DNA of 31,866 nucleotides from a virus. How positions within the stretch are numbered: the first letter of the stretch is position 1; every line of letters begins with the position of its first letter. Positions 893 through 8,969 of the stretch are shown here, in pieces. The DNA lies in IMG/VR virus record IMGVR_UViG_3300025120_000288, positions 1-31,866 of that record; one strand, written 5' to 3'. The position numbers and the translations under genes are program-made. Below the pieces are notes generated by a model that made no database searches, was not told the origin of the DNA, and saw only the letters and a program-made list of their open reading frames with translations.

Positions 893-1612
893 TCACGCGG
901 CCACCATCATTGACGGGATGATATCAGCATCAACGACGAATCCGTTATCTTCCGCCTTTGCAAGTGCCCCTTTTGCTTTCAATGCAATAATGACAGGGCC
1001 CGCGATACTATTAACTAGATCTGACTTATCGCCGTCTATAACTTGACGCCCTAGAAATTCCGCCGGGAATTCTTTCCTGAAGACCACCGCGATAGGAACC
1101 GGGAATTTTAAAGCGCGTTCAACCTGCGCGGCGTATTGTGGCCGGCCTGAGTAACTAAAAATCAAATTATAATTGTCCGGTATCCCGTTCCCGATGCGTT
1201 TGGCGCGTTTGGTGTAGTCGTAAAAATAGATAGCGGGGAACATTTGCGGAATGTCGTAAAGCTCCCATGGAATGTCTGAAAGTACATTCAACCGGACGGC
1301 CGGTTTCTTTCCGGTACGCTTACACAATGTTTGAAAATTATTTAACTCGAGGCATAACCGCTCCAAGAATTGCGGCCGGTCATTGTGCCAGAGATCCGAA
1401 CGCCATTGACGCCCCGCCGCTACATTATCAAAACGACCACGGCCCGCCGATTTTAGACAGCCCTCGAAGCATCCCGCCGCCTTACTAGCGGGGCATAATA
1501 TCCGATCGGGCATAAGGGAGAGAGATGCGACCCTATACTCTGCGCCTTTGTTAGTTTTTTTGATCTTGGTGTTGCCGTTGCCGGTGTCTAATAATTTCAA
1601 GTGCTTATTCAT
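893..1612 (-). CDS. Gp88-like conserved phage protein, function unknown
   Basis: This 239-residue protein resembles a phage family related to mycobacteriophage Gp88. Visible marks are a three-cysteine cluster C40-x7-C48-x3-C52 followed by a Gly-Arg-Gly segment, the block RLNVLSDIPWE in the middle, and FYDYTKRAKR shortly after. Three closely spaced cysteines could hold a metal or iron-sulphur centre, but no activity is established and that is my inference. The start is the ATG at 1612, 11 bases after the conserved ACTAGCAAAA leader motif. Its own promoter lies at 1668-1695. The gene sits beside the DUF932-like gene in the same orientation, opposite to the replication genes. Base composition is relatively GC-rich. 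Confidence 0.7.
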   Translation of the reverse strand: MNKHLKLLDTGNGNTKIKKTNKGAEYRVASLSLMPDRILCPASKAAGCFEGCLKSAGRGRFDNVAAGRQWRSDLWHNDRPQFLERLCLELNNFQTLCKRTGKKPAVRLNVLSDIPWELYDIPQMFPAIYFYDYTKRAKRIGNGIPDNYNLIFSYSGRPQYAAQVERALKFPVPIAVVFRKEFPAEFLGRQVIDGDKSDLVNSIAGPVIIALKAKGALAKAEDNGFVVDADIIPSMMVAA

Positions 1613-2372: not shown

Positions 2373-3476
2373 ATGAAATATTTAGAAGAGAGAAGGAGAG
2401 CGAACGGCACCAAGTTCTGGGCATTTAACCCGTCTGTTGCGGTACGTTCGGCGTTGGATGTAGTGTACAAGCCGTTTGACGACAAAAGGGAGGCACAACA
2501 GTATTGTAAGCGTATTTCTGAAGACTTCAGCCAACACAGAAGGACAAAGAATAGAGCAAACAAAGACACGTCAGGTGTGACTGTTAACTCATTGATACAA
2601 TGGTATATACATCACCCAAAGTTCAAAAACTTAGCAGAGCGTAGCCGTAGAAGTTATACAGATGCGTTTCATGTGTGTCTGCACATAACATCAGGCCGAA
2701 ACCCTACGACTTTTGGGGAAAGATTAGCCAAAAATATAAGTTATGACGATGCTGACATATTGTATGACAAGATTTTAAGACAGTACTCGCACCACAGAGC
2801 CAACCATGTAGTGAAAGTCTTACGTCGGGCGTGGTTTGTGGGCATCAGAGGCAATCGGGTAGACAAGAACCCTTTTGCAAAGATGGGAACGAAGCAAACT
2901 GAACATAGAAAGTATCAATGGACGCCTGAACAGGTTGATTTAGCTATTGAAACGGCTGACAAGATGAACCTTTCGTCAATGGGCACACTGATACTCATGC
3001 AATACTATCTGTGTGCAAGGCCGGGAGACATGCGCCAGTTAACTTATAACTCACAGTATCAAGATGGCAGTCCTAACGCATACAAGGACGGTGTGGCTTA
3101 CTTCCAACAAGAAAAGACACGCAGAAAGAATCCGATAAATATGGTTCTCCCTGTGCCCGACCGTTTAAGAGAAAGACTAGACAGTTTAGTTCAAGTAGAC
3201 GATGGGATAATTATCCGAAATGAAAAGACCCAACAGCCCTACGACCAGTTCTTCATAAACAAATGTTTCCAGAAGATAAGGTTGACCGCAGGACTACCAT
3301 TTGAACTACAAATGAGAGATCTTAGACGCTCCGGTGCTACAGCATTACAGGACAGTTCGGCGACTACTGAGGAGATCATGAGCATCACCGGACACAAGGA
3401 TCGAAAGATGCTAGAAATCTACTTAAACAAGAACGTAGCAGTAGCACAAAATGCTATGAATAAGAGATTTGGCTAA
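2373..3476 (+). CDS. int: Tyrosine-family site-specific integrase
   Basis: A 367-residue tyrosine recombinase that would join the phage attP to a host attB. Catalytic residues are visible: R216 in the segment CARPGDMR, R318 in RDLRRSGAT, H341 in TGHKD, and the nucleophile Y350 in LEIYLN. A lysine-rich EKTRRK segment between them fits the beta-hairpin lysine. The usual histidine three residues before the second arginine is R315 here, a variant I have seen in other phage integrases. An N-terminal arm and core-binding region occupy about residues 1-170. The frame is open from a TTG at 2337, but the ATG at 2373 follows AAGGA at a good distance and is chosen. The attP core lies 134 bases beyond the stop, the normal arrangement. 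Confidence 0.95.
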   Translation: MKYLEERRRANGTKFWAFNPSVAVRSALDVVYKPFDDKREAQQYCKRISEDFSQHRRTKNRANKDTSGVTVNSLIQWYIHHPKFKNLAERSRRSYTDAFHVCLHITSGRNPTTFGERLAKNISYDDADILYDKILRQYSHHRANHVVKVLRRAWFVGIRGNRVDKNPFAKMGTKQTEHRKYQWTPEQVDLAIETADKMNLSSMGTLILMQYYLCARPGDMRQLTYNSQYQDGSPNAYKDGVAYFQQEKTRRKNPINMVLPVPDRLRERLDSLVQVDDGIIIRNEKTQQPYDQFFINKCFQKIRLTAGLPFELQMRDLRRSGATALQDSSATTEEIMSITGHKDRKMLEIYLNKNVAVAQNAMNKRFG

Positions 3477-3609
3477 TGATTCTTAGTAGGGTAATTATTA
3501 ATGTAATAACAAAGGTAATAGCCACTTTTCAATCATTCGCCTCTATACCACTCAATAGAGGTAATTGTATCGTGTTTTTATGTAATCAATTCAATGACTT
3601 ATTTTTAAT

Positions 3610-3649
3610 TGGCTCCGGCGGTAGGGATCGAACCTACGACCAATTGATT
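3610..3649 (-). other. Phage attachment site core (attP) copied from a host tRNA 3' end
   Basis: Read on the minus strand, these 40 bases form the 3' part of a tRNA: the end of an anticodon loop and stem (TTAATCAAT beginning just outside), variable loop TGGTC, T-arm GTAGG-TTCGATC-CCTAC, acceptor strand CGCCGGA, discriminator G and CCA. No 5' half is present, so it is not a tRNA gene. A tRNA tail next to an integrase is the usual form of attP. Anticodon positions 35-36 read UU, and G73 with A72 favours tRNA-Asn(GUU) over tRNA-Lys. The surrounding gap of about 340 bases (3477-3818) holds only this core and the TTAACTA cluster. Confidence 0.9.
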
Positions 3650-3703
3650 AAGTCATTTATTAATAAAAACAATAGGTTAAGAGATCAAAAAGTGGTTGTT
3701 ACA

Positions 3704-3734
3704 TTAACTAAGGTTTTAACTAAATGATAGTTAA
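3704..3734. promoter_or_regulatory. Cluster of TTAACTA heptamers near attP
   Basis: TTAACTAA occurs at 3704-3711 and 3716-3723, 12 bases apart, and the inverse TAGTTAA at 3728-3734. The spacing is about one helical turn. The cluster lies between attP and the primase gene, so the copies could be integrase arm-type sites or operators. Similar copies occur at 1685, 1775, 2248, 5064 and 5075. Confidence 0.45.
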
Positions 3735-3818
3735 TCCTTGACGGATGGTGATTTAGGGTGTATAAAAGCGAGGCCGCTCCGGGGCCGAGCTACCCCTAAT
3801 AACCTTTATGGAGCGGAT

Positions 3819-4595
3819 ATGTACAATAAACAAGAACAACTACAAATACTACAATCCATTAAGCTTTCGGATGGCGAATCTAAGACGATAGATTGTCCTT
3901 TTTGTCATGGTAAAAAGAAGTTCAGTATTAGTCATAAAGACGGTGTACTTCTATGGAATTGTTATAAGGCCCAGTGCAATGCTAAAGGTGCATGGAAGAA
4001 GGGCTACTCCCTATCTGGATTGAAGAATAAAATATCTAATACCTTGGTTGTTGCAAAGAACAAAAACCGGGGGATGCCTAAGATATTATCTAACCCTCAG
4101 TATCACCCTCATCTTATTAAATACCTTGAGGACAACAATTGCCTACCCGCATTAAATCAAGGTCTGGTATCCATAAAATATGATCCGGTAGATAACAGAT
4201 GTCTTTTCATGATGAATCATGATGAAGGGGCAGTCGGACGTTCATTGGGGGGTAGAAACCCTAAATGGCTATCTTACGGAGATGTATCTGGAATACTACA
4301 AGTAGGTAACAGTCAGACGGCTGTAGTGGTAGAGGATGCCCCTTCAGCCTGTTCAGTTGCAAGTACAGGTATGTACACAGGCGTGGCTATTCTTGGTACA
4401 AGCATCACTCAGCAACAGAAACGGGCCTTAACAAAGTTTAATAGATTAATTATATGTCTTGACAACGATGCTAAAAATAAAGCAATGATGTTGTTATCAC
4501 AGCTAAGGGGATTAGTTTCTACATCTGTTAGGTTCATAAGTAACGACTTAAAGAATGAAACAACTACTCGCATCGCCAAGATATTAGAGGAATAG
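3819..4595 (+). CDS. DNA primase (zinc finger plus TOPRIM), T7 gp4 N-terminal type
   Basis: This 258-residue protein would make RNA primers at the phage fork. A zinc-binding domain at the N-terminus has C26-x2-C29 and C48-x4-C53. A TOPRIM domain follows, with the acidic residue E172 in VVVEDAPSA and the D215-N-D217 pair in CLDND, which bind catalytic metals. T7 gp4 fuses primase and helicase; here the helicase is a separate gene 500 bases downstream. The frame is open from 3738, but that would read through the region after attP. The ATG at 3819 follows GGAGCGGAT and places the zinc finger at a normal distance from the start. Confidence 0.85.
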   Translation: MYNKQEQLQILQSIKLSDGESKTIDCPFCHGKKKFSISHKDGVLLWNCYKAQCNAKGAWKKGYSLSGLKNKISNTLVVAKNKNRGMPKILSNPQYHPHLIKYLEDNNCLPALNQGLVSIKYDPVDNRCLFMMNHDEGAVGRSLGGRNPKWLSYGDVSGILQVGNSQTAVVVEDAPSACSVASTGMYTGVAILGTSITQQQKRALTKFNRLIICLDNDAKNKAMMLLSQLRGLVSTSVRFISNDLKNETTTRIAKILEE

Positions 4596-4779: not shown

Positions 4780-4983
4780 ATGGGAAAATTTAGAGGGATA
4801 GTCGTGATAGACTATGAATTAGATAGTTACAAACAAGTAGCAAGCGAAGAACAATCATTGGAAGATGCCATCAGACAATTGGTCAAAGGTAATCCCCGGG
4901 TTGTACGCTCCGAGGTGGACATAAAAGAACGCCGGGGAGACAAAGCACCAGACATTAAAAAGATGAAATTAAGGTCAAGCTGA
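4780..4983 (+). CDS. Unknown 67-residue protein before the early terminator
   Basis: The start ATG follows AAAAAAGGA at a normal distance. The product begins with a short hydrophobic strand (GIVVIDYEL) followed by an amphipathic helix (about residues 22-36) and a basic tail. It resembles small phage proteins found between primase and helicase, but I do not recognise a family. A strong intrinsic terminator begins 25 bases after the stop, so this is the last gene of the primase transcript. Confidence 0.6.
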   Translation: MGKFRGIVVIDYELDSYKQVASEEQSLEDAIRQLVKGNPRVVRSEVDIKERRGDKAPDIKKMKLRSS

Positions 4984-5091: not shown

Positions 5092-6315
5092 ATGGACATT
5101 AAACTATTAAAATCCCTACTAGCATCTGAATTTTATACAGAAAATAAATCCAACCTAACGTCCCACCTATTCGAGGGGGACATCAAAGACTGCTACGACA
5201 TCCTAGTAGCCGCACATGAGAAGTATGAGCATGACCTAACTGCACACGACCTGACCGCATTATGGGAGAACAGTAACCCTGTAGCTACCCGCTCCGAGAA
5301 AGAGTCGTTTGGAGATTTAGTCACCCAGATACAAGACACAGCCCCTCTATCCGATTCAGTAGCCGCAGATGTCATTCATGGTATCTGGCAACGGCACATT
5401 GGGTCAAAGGTAGCCAACCTAGGTATTGAGTTAGCTGATGGAAACACCAGTGCAATGACTCGCCTAACCTCATTGTTAGATCACACCAAGGATGGTTTTA
5501 TGCCATCGGACTTTGGTGAGCCTACTACAAAAGACATCCATGAACTGCTTGCTGAAGCTAGTGATGATAACCGATGGGCATTTAACATAGGTACACTAGG
5601 CCGTCATGTCTATGGTTTAGGCCCCGGTGAGTTCATGTGTACCTTTGCATTACCTGAGACAGGTAAGACCGCATTCTTAGTTAGCCTATGCACCGGGCCT
5701 GAAGGCTTCTGCCATCAAGGGGCCAAGGTAATGTTTCTTGGCAATGAAGAGAAGACAAGCAGGACAATGCTACGTGCCATGCAAGCTTGGTGTGGTTTTG
5801 ATCGTCAACAGATAGCCAACTCTCCCAACAAAGCCCGGCAGAAGTTTGAAGAGATAGCCGATTTGTTTGAGATGAACGAGATACAGGAGTGGGATCTGGC
5901 AAAGATAGAAGCCTATATTGAACTGAAGAAGCCTGACGTGCTGATTATTGATCAAGCAGACAAAGTTAACATCGGTGGTAACTTCAATGCGGGGCATGAA
6001 CGCCTAAGAGAACTATACCGTCGCTTACGAGAGACAGCCAAGAAGTACGAGTGCGCTCTCATTGCAGTTAGCCAAGCAAGCAACGATGCCAAGGGACGTA
6101 CACGCCTATCTGGCTTCGATATGGAAGGCAGTAAGATTGGTAAGATGGCAGAGACAGATCTGGTCATTGGCATTGGACGCCATGAAGCAGGTGATGTTGA
6201 TGACTCTGAACCGGATACCACACGCTACCTGACCGTTAGTAAGAATAAATTGAGCGGGTGGCATGGAACAATCATCTGCAACATCCAACCCGAAATATCA
6301 CGCTATGTGGAGTAA
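5092..6315 (+). CDS. Replicative DNA helicase, DnaB/RecA-fold type
   Basis: A 407-residue protein with an N-terminal helical region and a RecA-like ATPase domain. The Walker A segment is ALPETGKT at residues 186-193, with Ala where the first Gly is usual. Walker B is VLIIDQAD, with D288. A later block, ALIAVSQASNDAKG, fits DnaB motif 3, and the segment after it ending in ETDLVIGIGRHE also matches DnaB-like phage helicases. It would form a ring and unwind DNA ahead of the polymerase, working with the separate primase upstream. The next gene starts 3 bases after the stop. The start ATG at 5092 has only a weak AAAG ribosome binding site, so initiation is less certain than identity. Confidence 0.85.
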   Translation: MDIKLLKSLLASEFYTENKSNLTSHLFEGDIKDCYDILVAAHEKYEHDLTAHDLTALWENSNPVATRSEKESFGDLVTQIQDTAPLSDSVAADVIHGIWQRHIGSKVANLGIELADGNTSAMTRLTSLLDHTKDGFMPSDFGEPTTKDIHELLAEASDDNRWAFNIGTLGRHVYGLGPGEFMCTFALPETGKTAFLVSLCTGPEGFCHQGAKVMFLGNEEKTSRTMLRAMQAWCGFDRQQIANSPNKARQKFEEIADLFEMNEIQEWDLAKIEAYIELKKPDVLIIDQADKVNIGGNFNAGHERLRELYRRLRETAKKYECALIAVSQASNDAKGRTRLSGFDMEGSKIGKMAETDLVIGIGRHEAGDVDDSEPDTTRYLTVSKNKLSGWHGTIICNIQPEISRYVE

Positions 6316-6318
6316 TGT

Positions 6319-6837
6319 ATGCTTATCACTTTAAGTAGGCAGGATGCACACACTTGTAAGTTAATGGGGGCCGATACAGTCAAGCTTTGTGAGATGCAAG
6401 GTTTTAAGCCTCGACTAGAAAACGAAAACCAATCACGGGTAGATGCCAATGTGTATGGCTTCAAGGCAGAGTTTGCTGTGGCACGTCTGCTTAATCTAGA
6501 TACCCCTACAGTTAATGTGGTTACTGATGGTGGAGTTGATCTTTGGTTTGATGAAACATCAATCGATGTTAAATTCACCAACGCGGAATACGGCCCCTTA
6601 ATCTTTGATACAATGCCTAAGTTTCGAGCGCAGTTAGCTGTGTTGGTTAGCCGTACTGAAAGCCCAAATATCATGCGAGTGAATGGTTGGGTGGACAGAA
6701 GAACATTCAAGAAAGAATCAAAGCCAATAGATTTTGGTTATGGGGAAAGGCTCACAATGGAACACGATGAATTGTTTCCAATTGAAAGCCTATGGAAAAC
6801 ATTAATGGAAAATAAATTTAAAGGGGAGTTAACATGA
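6319..6837 (+). CDS. PD-(D/E)XK nuclease-like protein
   Basis: The 172-residue protein has the spacing of a PD-(D/E)XK nuclease core: E51 in GFKAEFAVARLL, D74 in DGGVDLWF, and D83-x-K85 in the strand SIDVKF. This fold underlies restriction enzymes, Holliday resolvases and repair nucleases, so the exact substrate cannot be told. It lies between helicase and polymerase, and its stop overlaps the polymerase start (ATGA), suggesting translational coupling. A role in processing replication intermediates is inferred from context. Confidence 0.6.
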   Translation: MLITLSRQDAHTCKLMGADTVKLCEMQGFKPRLENENQSRVDANVYGFKAEFAVARLLNLDTPTVNVVTDGGVDLWFDETSIDVKFTNAEYGPLIFDTMPKFRAQLAVLVSRTESPNIMRVNGWVDRRTFKKESKPIDFGYGERLTMEHDELFPIESLWKTLMENKFKGELT

Positions 6838-8969
6838 TAGAACGGGTAATTGTATTGGACTTAGAAACAACAGTTCAGTTTGGTGAAGATAAGAGTAAAG
6901 ATAACAGCCCATATAACCCGAAGAATAAAATAGTATCCGCACACTGGAGAATGATTGAGTCCGGCGTATTAGGCCCGGCTAAACACGCAGTCTTCTATCA
7001 TGATGATAAAGAGACCCCCGATAGCCCCACAGAATTCCAAGAGGACATTACTCGGGCTGAATTAATTGTAGCCCACAACGCCAAGTTTGATGTGTCCTAT
7101 TTAAAGGAGGCTAACTTCAGCCTACCCGACAAGGTCTATTGTACGTTTGTAGGTGAGTACATCTTTGCTAGAGGGCAACGGCAGGAGCTATCCCTTAAGG
7201 CTACGGCTGAACGCCGGGATGTTACCCGGAAGAAGTCTGACCTAGTAGATGGCCTATTTAAGTCCGGTATCGGGTTTGATTCTATGCCATTGGCCACAGT
7301 CATTGAGTATGCGGACGCTGATGTCCTATCAACCGCAGAGATCTACCTAGCACAACAGAAAGATCTTCTTAAAGAGTCAAACGTAGGCTTACTCCCAGTA
7401 TTCAATCTGATGAATGATATGTTGTTGTTTCTTGTAGAGATGGAAGGCAACGGTATCTGCATCGACAAGGACATTTTGCACGGTGTGCGGGATGAGTTTA
7501 TTCAAGAAAAGGCTGACATAGAGAAGGCACTGGGTGAAATAACACAAGATGTTATGGGAGATACTCCTATCAATCTAAACAGCGGTATTGATATGACTGC
7601 TGTTGTGTATAGCCGAGTAGTTAAGAACAGAGACTACCATAAAAATGCATTCAACATTGGTGTAAATGCTAGAGGTAAACCTCTCCCACCCCCTCGCATG
7701 AACGCTAGTCAGTTTTCTAATACAGTTCGCAAGTCTACCCGCAGAGTAATGAAGACGGTAGCGCATCACTGTGAGACTTGCCAAGGCAGAGGACAGATAC
7801 AGAAAAGAAAAGTTAATGGTGATCTATACAAGAACCTAAGTAAATGTGTGGCATGTGAAGGTAAGGGCTACATCCTAACTGAAACAGGTCAAGTTGCCGG
7901 TCTTAAACTTATTCCTACCCAAGCCACTGATGCAAGTATCAACGGCTTTAAGACTGATAAGGTTACAATCAGGAAGTTGATTGGTCAAGCGCAGTCTAAG
8001 GATAACCTCGTTGCTGTTGAGTTTCTTACTAAGATATCCCGGCTAAACGCCATCAGTACTTATCTAGACTCTTTTATTAAAAATATAGATAACTCTACTA
8101 GGGCTACGGGCCTACTACACGCACAGTTTAATCAATGCATTACCCGAACAGGTCGTCTGTCTTCTAGCCAACCTAACTTCCAGAACATCCCAAAGGGGAC
8201 TAAGTTTCCCGTACGGAAAGCCGTACGCTCTCGTTTCAAGGGCGGCTCTATCATGGAAGCCGACTTTAGTGGGCTAGAGTTTCGGGTGGCCGGGGAACTG
8301 TCTCGGTGCCCTACAGTTATTCAACAGATACTTGATGGGTTTGATGTACACAAACAGACTGCCTCTATCATTAATCAATGTGAGGTTGAGGAGGTCAGCA
8401 AAGACATGCGCCAGAATGCTAAGGCGTATACGTTTGCCCCTCTATACGGCGGTATGGGTGCTAATGAGGCCCCGCATGTACAGGCGTACTTTAAAGAATA
8501 CTTCAACATCTATAAAGGTTTGTCTGAGTGGCATAAGACCCTCATGAGTGGTGTGTTAAGGAACGGTCTTGTACGAATTCCCTCGGGCAGGGAGTTCTAT
8601 TTCCCTAACACGAAACGACTCCGCAACGGACGTGTTACAAATGCTACAGCTATAGTAAACTATCCCTGTCAGTCCTTCGCTACGGCTGACCTTGTCGTCC
8701 TATCCTGTGTCCGGGCTCTACGCCGTTTCAGGAGGGAAGACTTTAAATCCAAAATCATTCTCAGTGTTCACGATAGTATCGTTGTCGATGTTTATCCGGG
8801 CGAAGAGGATGCAGTTAACGGCGCTCTGTGTTGGGCTATGGGAGAGTTGCCGGAAGAGGTCAAAGAGAGATTTAATTATGAATTACTCTTGCCTCTGGAT
8901 ATCGAAATAAACCTTGGCCCAAATTGGATGGAACAGGACGAGATAGCATTGACTAACGCCACTAACTAA
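6834..8969 (+). CDS. Family A DNA polymerase with 3'-5' exonuclease and DnaJ-type zinc insert
   Basis: A 711-residue replicative polymerase. The N-terminal DEDD exonuclease shows D9-x-E11 (LDLETT), D86 in AHNAKFD and Asp residues at 161/163 in YADADV. The polymerase domain has motif A with D477 in EADFSGLEF, motif B R526-x3-K530-x3-F534-x3-Y538-G, and motif C H646-D647. F534 matches Phe762 of E. coli Pol I. Between the two domains lie two CxxCxGxG repeats, C313-C316 and C338-C341, like half of the DnaJ zinc centre. I recall this odd insert from SAR116 phage HMO-2011. GGGGAG before the ATG is a good ribosome binding site. Confidence 0.95.
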   Translation: MIERVIVLDLETTVQFGEDKSKDNSPYNPKNKIVSAHWRMIESGVLGPAKHAVFYHDDKETPDSPTEFQEDITRAELIVAHNAKFDVSYLKEANFSLPDKVYCTFVGEYIFARGQRQELSLKATAERRDVTRKKSDLVDGLFKSGIGFDSMPLATVIEYADADVLSTAEIYLAQQKDLLKESNVGLLPVFNLMNDMLLFLVEMEGNGICIDKDILHGVRDEFIQEKADIEKALGEITQDVMGDTPINLNSGIDMTAVVYSRVVKNRDYHKNAFNIGVNARGKPLPPPRMNASQFSNTVRKSTRRVMKTVAHHCETCQGRGQIQKRKVNGDLYKNLSKCVACEGKGYILTETGQVAGLKLIPTQATDASINGFKTDKVTIRKLIGQAQSKDNLVAVEFLTKISRLNAISTYLDSFIKNIDNSTRATGLLHAQFNQCITRTGRLSSSQPNFQNIPKGTKFPVRKAVRSRFKGGSIMEADFSGLEFRVAGELSRCPTVIQQILDGFDVHKQTASIINQCEVEEVSKDMRQNAKAYTFAPLYGGMGANEAPHVQAYFKEYFNIYKGLSEWHKTLMSGVLRNGLVRIPSGREFYFPNTKRLRNGRVTNATAIVNYPCQSFATADLVVLSCVRALRRFRREDFKSKIILSVHDSIVVDVYPGEEDAVNGALCWAMGELPEEVKERFNYELLLPLDIEINLGPNWMEQDEIALTNATN

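Follow-up and report, generated by a model that had tools for sequence, protein, structure and literature searches.

A tRNA-Asn 3' end between the integrase and primase genes as the probable attachment site of an HMO-2011-type phage

The stretch of viral DNA analyzed here (the window: 31,866 nucleotides, positions 1 to 31,866 of IMG/VR record IMGVR_UViG_3300025120_000288) carries, between a tyrosine integrase gene and a DNA primase gene, 42 bases from the 3' end of a tRNA-Asn(GUU) gene. We consider it very probable that these bases form the attP core of a phage that can integrate and is probably temperate, an HMO-2011-type member of subgroup III (CRP-3-like) with a Rhodobacteraceae host. The reading draws on exact identity with the tRNA, the host group that this identity indicates, synteny with phage CRP-3, the domain and motifs of the integrase, an IHF-like motif at a constant offset, and the exact core in a relative, L122. 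The closest relatives carry the end of initiator tRNA-Met, and the lineage appears to have switched its insertion address. The features are listed in Table 1.

Table 1. Features in and around the putative attachment site (positions in the window).
Feature	Position	Strand	Remarks
Tyrosine integrase, 367 aa	2373..3476	+	Pfam PF00589, 7.7e-09; PHROG integrase, 3.5e-28; motifs
Integrase-side arm of attP	3477..3609	.	Between integrase stop and core; diverged from L122 as far as about 3587
IHF-like site TAAGTCATTGAAT, one mismatch to YAANNNNTTGATW	3589..3601	-	By eye
attP core, 3' end of tRNA-Asn(GUU), positions 35-76 with CCA	3610..3651	-	Exact 42-mer in Rhodobacterales tRNA-Asn(gtt) genes
Primase-side arm of attP	3652..3735	.	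Closest to arms of fMet-type phages
IHF-like site TAACCTATTGTTT, one mismatch	3667..3679	-	At an offset shared by 42 attPs of the group
Putative sigma-70-like promoter TTGACG - 17 nt - TATAAA, before replication genes	3738..3765	+	Pattern match
DNA primase	3819..4595	+	PHROG DNA primase, 1.2e-21
DnaB-like helicase	5092..6315	+	72-75% identical to fMet-type phages (L350 group)
DNA polymerase, HMO-2011 type, two CXXCXGXG motifs	6834..8969	+	

The initial annotation had described a 40-base tRNA 3' end on the minus strand at 3610-3649 (AATCAATTGGTCGTAGGTTCGATCCCTACCGCCGGAGCCA), lacking a 5' half and lying 134 bases past the integrase gene, whose stop codon ends at 3476. Inspection of the sequence confirmed the coordinates, strand and content, and the core observation is real; only the extent had to be amended. 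Positions 35-36 of the tRNA (TT) match as well, so the shared block is 42 nt rather than 40, and minus-strand 3651-3610 is identical to the Rhodobacterales tRNA-Asn(GUU) gene from position 35 to the CCA. The block consists of a T-arm (GTAGG-TTCGATC-CCTAC, with a 5-bp T-stem), a 7-nt acceptor strand (CGCCGGA), G73 and CCA. Identity with the host tRNA ends at position 34, where the phage has C and the tRNA has G; the anticodon loop is therefore shared only in part, which we counted against the reading. The 5' half of the tRNA is absent, and ARAGORN calls no tRNA across the window.

The 42-mer was scanned against one genome per GTDB species, and at least 119 contigs matched. The 119 contigs listed are all from Alphaproteobacteria, comprising 114 from Rhodobacterales and five from records without an order, so that among these matches every genome with an assigned order belongs to Rhodobacterales. 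The exact 42-mer occurs in 275 of 397 genomes sampled evenly from one GTDB family, that of Rhodobacteraceae MAG ASP10-04a, which is far above chance; a reversed control pattern gave zero among the matches listed. The 40-mer first described is found on at least 120 IMG/VR stretches. ARAGORN recognized 106 host gene copies as intact, every one as tRNA-Asn(gtt), and 105 of the fetched copies are one identical 75-nt sequence. The preference of the initial annotation for tRNA-Asn(GUU) thus held, and the bacterial tRNA ending in all 40 bases that it looked for is found, exactly, in Rhodobacterales. TTAATCAATTGG fits the anticodon arm of tRNA-Lys as well; tRNA-Lys as the source of the core was ruled out by the acceptor stem and by ARAGORN.

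The host is most likely a Rhodobacteraceae (Roseobacter-type) bacterium. The fragment had also been proposed as a handle for naming the host, and this proved correct at the level of the order, where all the listed genomes with an assigned order agree; since the match is family-wide, the host can be named to family but not to genus. Assigning a host through a tRNA-derived attP is established practice, and its resolution is broad (PMC3861242). Around fifteen truncated tRNA-Asn copies in genome contigs resemble attR sites of other elements, from which we conclude that the tRNA-Asn gene is an integration hot spot. In Rhodobacteraceae strain SB2 (L449), two truncated tRNA-Asn ends at 4882 and 9503, 4.6 kb apart, adjoin a tyrosine recombinase-like gene and two adenylate-cyclase-like genes, an instance of other elements using tRNA-Asn. 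This SB2 element has no phage gene in common with the window and was rejected as kin of its phage.

All the catalytic motifs of a tyrosine integrase are found in the window protein (ARPGD, EKT, RDLRR, TGH and EIY, providing R, K, R/R, H and Y). Alignment with relatives indicates that the gene probably starts at ATG 2373 and not at TTG 2337; for the primase, ATG 3819 behind GGAG is a likelier start than TTG 3738, where the listed ORF opens. The gene order is integrase, attP, primase, helicase, polymerase, which places the integrase upstream of the replication module. The polymerase motifs are CETCQGRG at 313 and CVACEGKG at 338 (a partial DnaJ domain). Over 99% of the query, its identity is 62% to CRP-3, 57% to CRP-235, 56% to CRP-212 and 51% to CRP-738; to HMO-2011 it is 38%. 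By these comparisons the window is a fragment of an HMO-2011-type phage of subgroup III, CRP-3-like. We note that a GP88-family gene (893-1612, minus strand; Pfam PF17338, 1.4e-36) lies upstream of the integrase on the opposite strand. A search of the window that took in part of the small ORFs turned up no repressor gene, which we also counted against the proposed reading.

CRP-3 is the one HMO-2011-type phage proven to integrate: others verified that it inserts into tRNA-Met(CAT) and interpreted this as lysogeny (PMC6918029). CRP-3 (a Roseobacter phage, MK613345) resembles the window in having its integrase upstream of the replication genes and a minus-strand tRNA 3' end just before the primase. 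The published phage-side primers, which we located at 2829-2849(+) and 3642-3662(-) of the CRP-3 record, flank the tRNA-fMet fragment at 3171-3210, and the window fragment lies at the homologous place; this synteny supports the original reading of the fragment as attP (PMC6918029). The two phages differ in that the core of CRP-3 comes from initiator tRNA-Met, its integrase is 42-43% identical to that of the window, and thymidylate synthase and other genes lie between its integrase and attP. CRP-3, CRP-212, CRP-235 and CRP-738 each have a tRNA 3' end, oriented as in the window, directly upstream of the primase; in the subgroup I phages HMO-2011, CRP-1 and CRP-345 the integrase adjoins the primase directly and leaves no such gap. 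An integrase is present in most phages of subgroups I and III (PMC9038755, PMC6918029), and within subgroup III CRP-3 integrates and the other integrase-bearing members are likely temperate (PMC9038755). The earlier view of the group as one discussed mostly as lytic, with a temperate member unexpected, is therefore outdated, integrases being common in these two subgroups and CRP-3 an integrating phage (PMC9038755, PMC6918029).

The isolate Roseobacter phage CRP-738 (MZ892992, host FZCC0089) also has a tRNA-Asn 3' end before its primase, matching the window at 40 of 42 bases (95.2%; attP-like site at L123 2934-2975). It differs in a T-stem variant, GTTGG/CCAAC, and in its integrase, which is only 28% identical. 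The variant core has no exact match in 121 family genomes. No integration site of CRP-738 is reported in the literature searched, and our literature search found no published report of tRNA-Asn as an HMO-2011-type integration site. We predict that CRP-738 integrates at tRNA-Asn in FZCC0089.

In the mechanism that we propose, the integrase would bind the core and arm sites, host IHF would bend the arms, and attP would recombine with the host tRNA-Asn(GUU) gene in its 3' half. The attP of CRP-3 is exact with its own tRNA only from position 39 onward, so strand exchange in the family is probably at or beyond this position, and the crossover of the window phage would probably fall there too. The phage copy would take the place of the displaced 3' end, and the host tRNA would therefore stay whole; and because attP lies between integrase and primase, the integrase and the replication genes would lie at opposite ends of a prophage. 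The motifs may point to a role for IHF. When scored against the IHF consensus YAANNNNTTGATW, the best match in 42 attPs of the group falls at one constant offset with 8-9 of 9 informative positions, compared to mostly 6-7 in shuffles. Near the site at 3589-3601, the nearest relatives carry TAAGTCATTG or TAAGCCCTTG shortly past the CCA. Inverted repeats between the two arms are marginal relative to shuffles (2/100). An 83-codon frame at 3476-3727 (+) crosses attP and is possibly a small gene behind the integrase; it has no Pfam match. Its first 26 codons resemble by eye a frame in L122 (MIL..V.......VATFQ.F..IPLN), which stops before the core.

Neither attL, attR nor a prophage of the window phage was found in the collections searched, which is weak evidence and no disproof; nor did these collections contain the prophage with this integrase beside tRNA-Asn that the initial annotation had looked for. 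A search of GTDB genomes with the integrase gave no relative, and exact patterns of the attP flanks occur, across viral contigs, in L092 only. Searches with the polymerase and with an integrase profile found no HMO-2011-type prophage in the 397 family genomes, the integrase search having been run without a positive control; the single polymerase match is 31% identical over part of the query and lies inside a 976-aa frame. The lack of HMO-2011-type polymerase prophages in these genomes would fit a transient integration at tRNA-Asn by a phage that is not truly temperate. The T7-like cyanophages S-TIP37 and P-SSP7 are, like the window phage, marine podoviruses with an integrase and a tRNA-derived attP, an arrangement that permits integration without stable lysogens; they belong to a different phage group and their attP matches tRNA-Leu (PMC8776855). 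We regard such transient integration as a real but minor possibility, because absence from reference genomes is weak evidence, with no positive control for the integrase search, and because integration of CRP-3 at tRNA-Met was verified and read as lysogeny (PMC6918029). Lysogeny of the window phage is our inference.

The lack of an integrated copy, together with an integrase only 28-30% identical to other tRNA-Asn integrases and nearer to fMet-type ones, would also fit a tRNA-Asn fragment that is a non-functional leftover, the present integrase using another site. This is very improbable: all 42 bases are exact, the core is unchanged in L122 beside an integrase only 77-78% identical, and a T-arm scan between the integrase and primase of the window gave the Asn end only and no fMet fragment.

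More than 100 relatives carry a tRNA end in the same position and orientation as the window. About 56 HMO-2011-type viral contigs besides the window have a tRNA-Asn end at the homologous place, and an initiator tRNA-Met end is found at about 100 loci, a count in which some contigs appear twice. One locus, L277, has a full tRNA with a C1/A72 mismatch, the mark of an initiator tRNA. tRNA-Asn would be a second common integration locus beside tRNA-Met, and many uncultured HMO-2011-type contigs can be assigned to a host group.

The backbone of the window is, on sequence comparison, fMet-type and its address Asn, a placement that rests on single-gene trees (integrase, helicase, polymerase). Its integrase is 41-44% identical to the fMet clade, compared to 28-30% for other tRNA-Asn integrases. 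Its helicase is 72-75% identical to those of fMet-type L350, L436 and L442, compared to at most 54% for tRNA-Asn-type phages, and its polymerase is 78% identical to that of fMet-type L350, compared to at most 56%; in both trees the window groups with the fMet-type L350/L436/L442 (SH-aLRT 97 and 100). The CRP-738-like tRNA-Asn integrases come together as a single clade (100/100) in the best integrase tree, and the window and L092 fall inside the fMet clade (96/85, 95/96, 84/95). The ten primase-side arms most like that of the window are all fMet-type, the best five well above shuffles, although a whole-group comparison was not significant (p 0.10); the integrase-side arm gave no signal for either address class in the comparison of arm similarity.

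Given this fMet-type backbone, the lineage most likely came to its Asn address independently of the CRP-738-like phages. With all three trees and the primase-side arm nearest to fMet-type phages, a second, separate arrival at tRNA-Asn is the best reading, although the integrase tree alone is no proof of it: AU tests rejected neither a single tRNA-Asn clade (p 0.12-0.23) nor an fMet clade without the window (p 0.24). These two topologies (p 0.23 and 0.24), and the long branch of the window, leave some room for a tRNA-Asn address that is ancestral, kept by the window lineage and changed in the fMet clade, with no second arrival. We think this doubtful, since in the trees of helicase and polymerase the window sits deep within the fMet-type phages (SH-aLRT 97 and 100), though the history of these genes may differ from that of the integrase. 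Separate arrival, which we prefer, would have come about by replacement or re-targeting of integrase and core. The low identity of the integrase was rejected as proof of replacement: pairs with helicases at 70-80% have integrases spanning 36-81%, among which 41-44% is not exceptional. Integrases vary more than helicases across the group, so this is a general tendency in which the window is low and not extreme.

The comparison with L092/L122 (IMGVR_UViG_3300001472_003890) gives a closer view. The core and primase-side arm of this contig are identical to those of the window and its replication genes are 98-100% identical, whereas its integrase is 77-78% identical and its integrase-side arm has diverged. 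Aligned along their length, the two are 98-100% identical from 3606 onward and 58-81% over the integrase. The last mismatches ahead of the core are at 3582, 3586, 3587 and 3605, and on the integrase-side border of the core, within 3588-3606, identity jumps from about 70% to 99-100%. It is as if the integrase side had been exchanged between near-identical phages with its breakpoint at the core edge. L256 and L329 likewise have a diverged integrase and attP region inside an otherwise near-identical stretch. On balance we lean, by no great measure, toward the view that the address of HMO-2011-type phages is an exchangeable module: by swapping integrase and core, the fMet-type lineage of the window would have moved from initiator tRNA-Met to tRNA-Asn without any link to the same step in the CRP-738 clade, and near-identical phages would keep swapping integrases at the joint at the attP edge. 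Integrases that share an arm layout but differ in core offer ready-made pairs for examining how the target of a tyrosine integrase changes. One further contig, L419, has a fMet-clade integrase, 72% identical to that of fMet-type L255, and a core from a third tRNA (AGAGGTTCAAGTCCTCTCGGGCCTACCA, locus about 4223-4250); this core has no exact match in 121 family genomes, and L419 may represent a further change of address, or another host.
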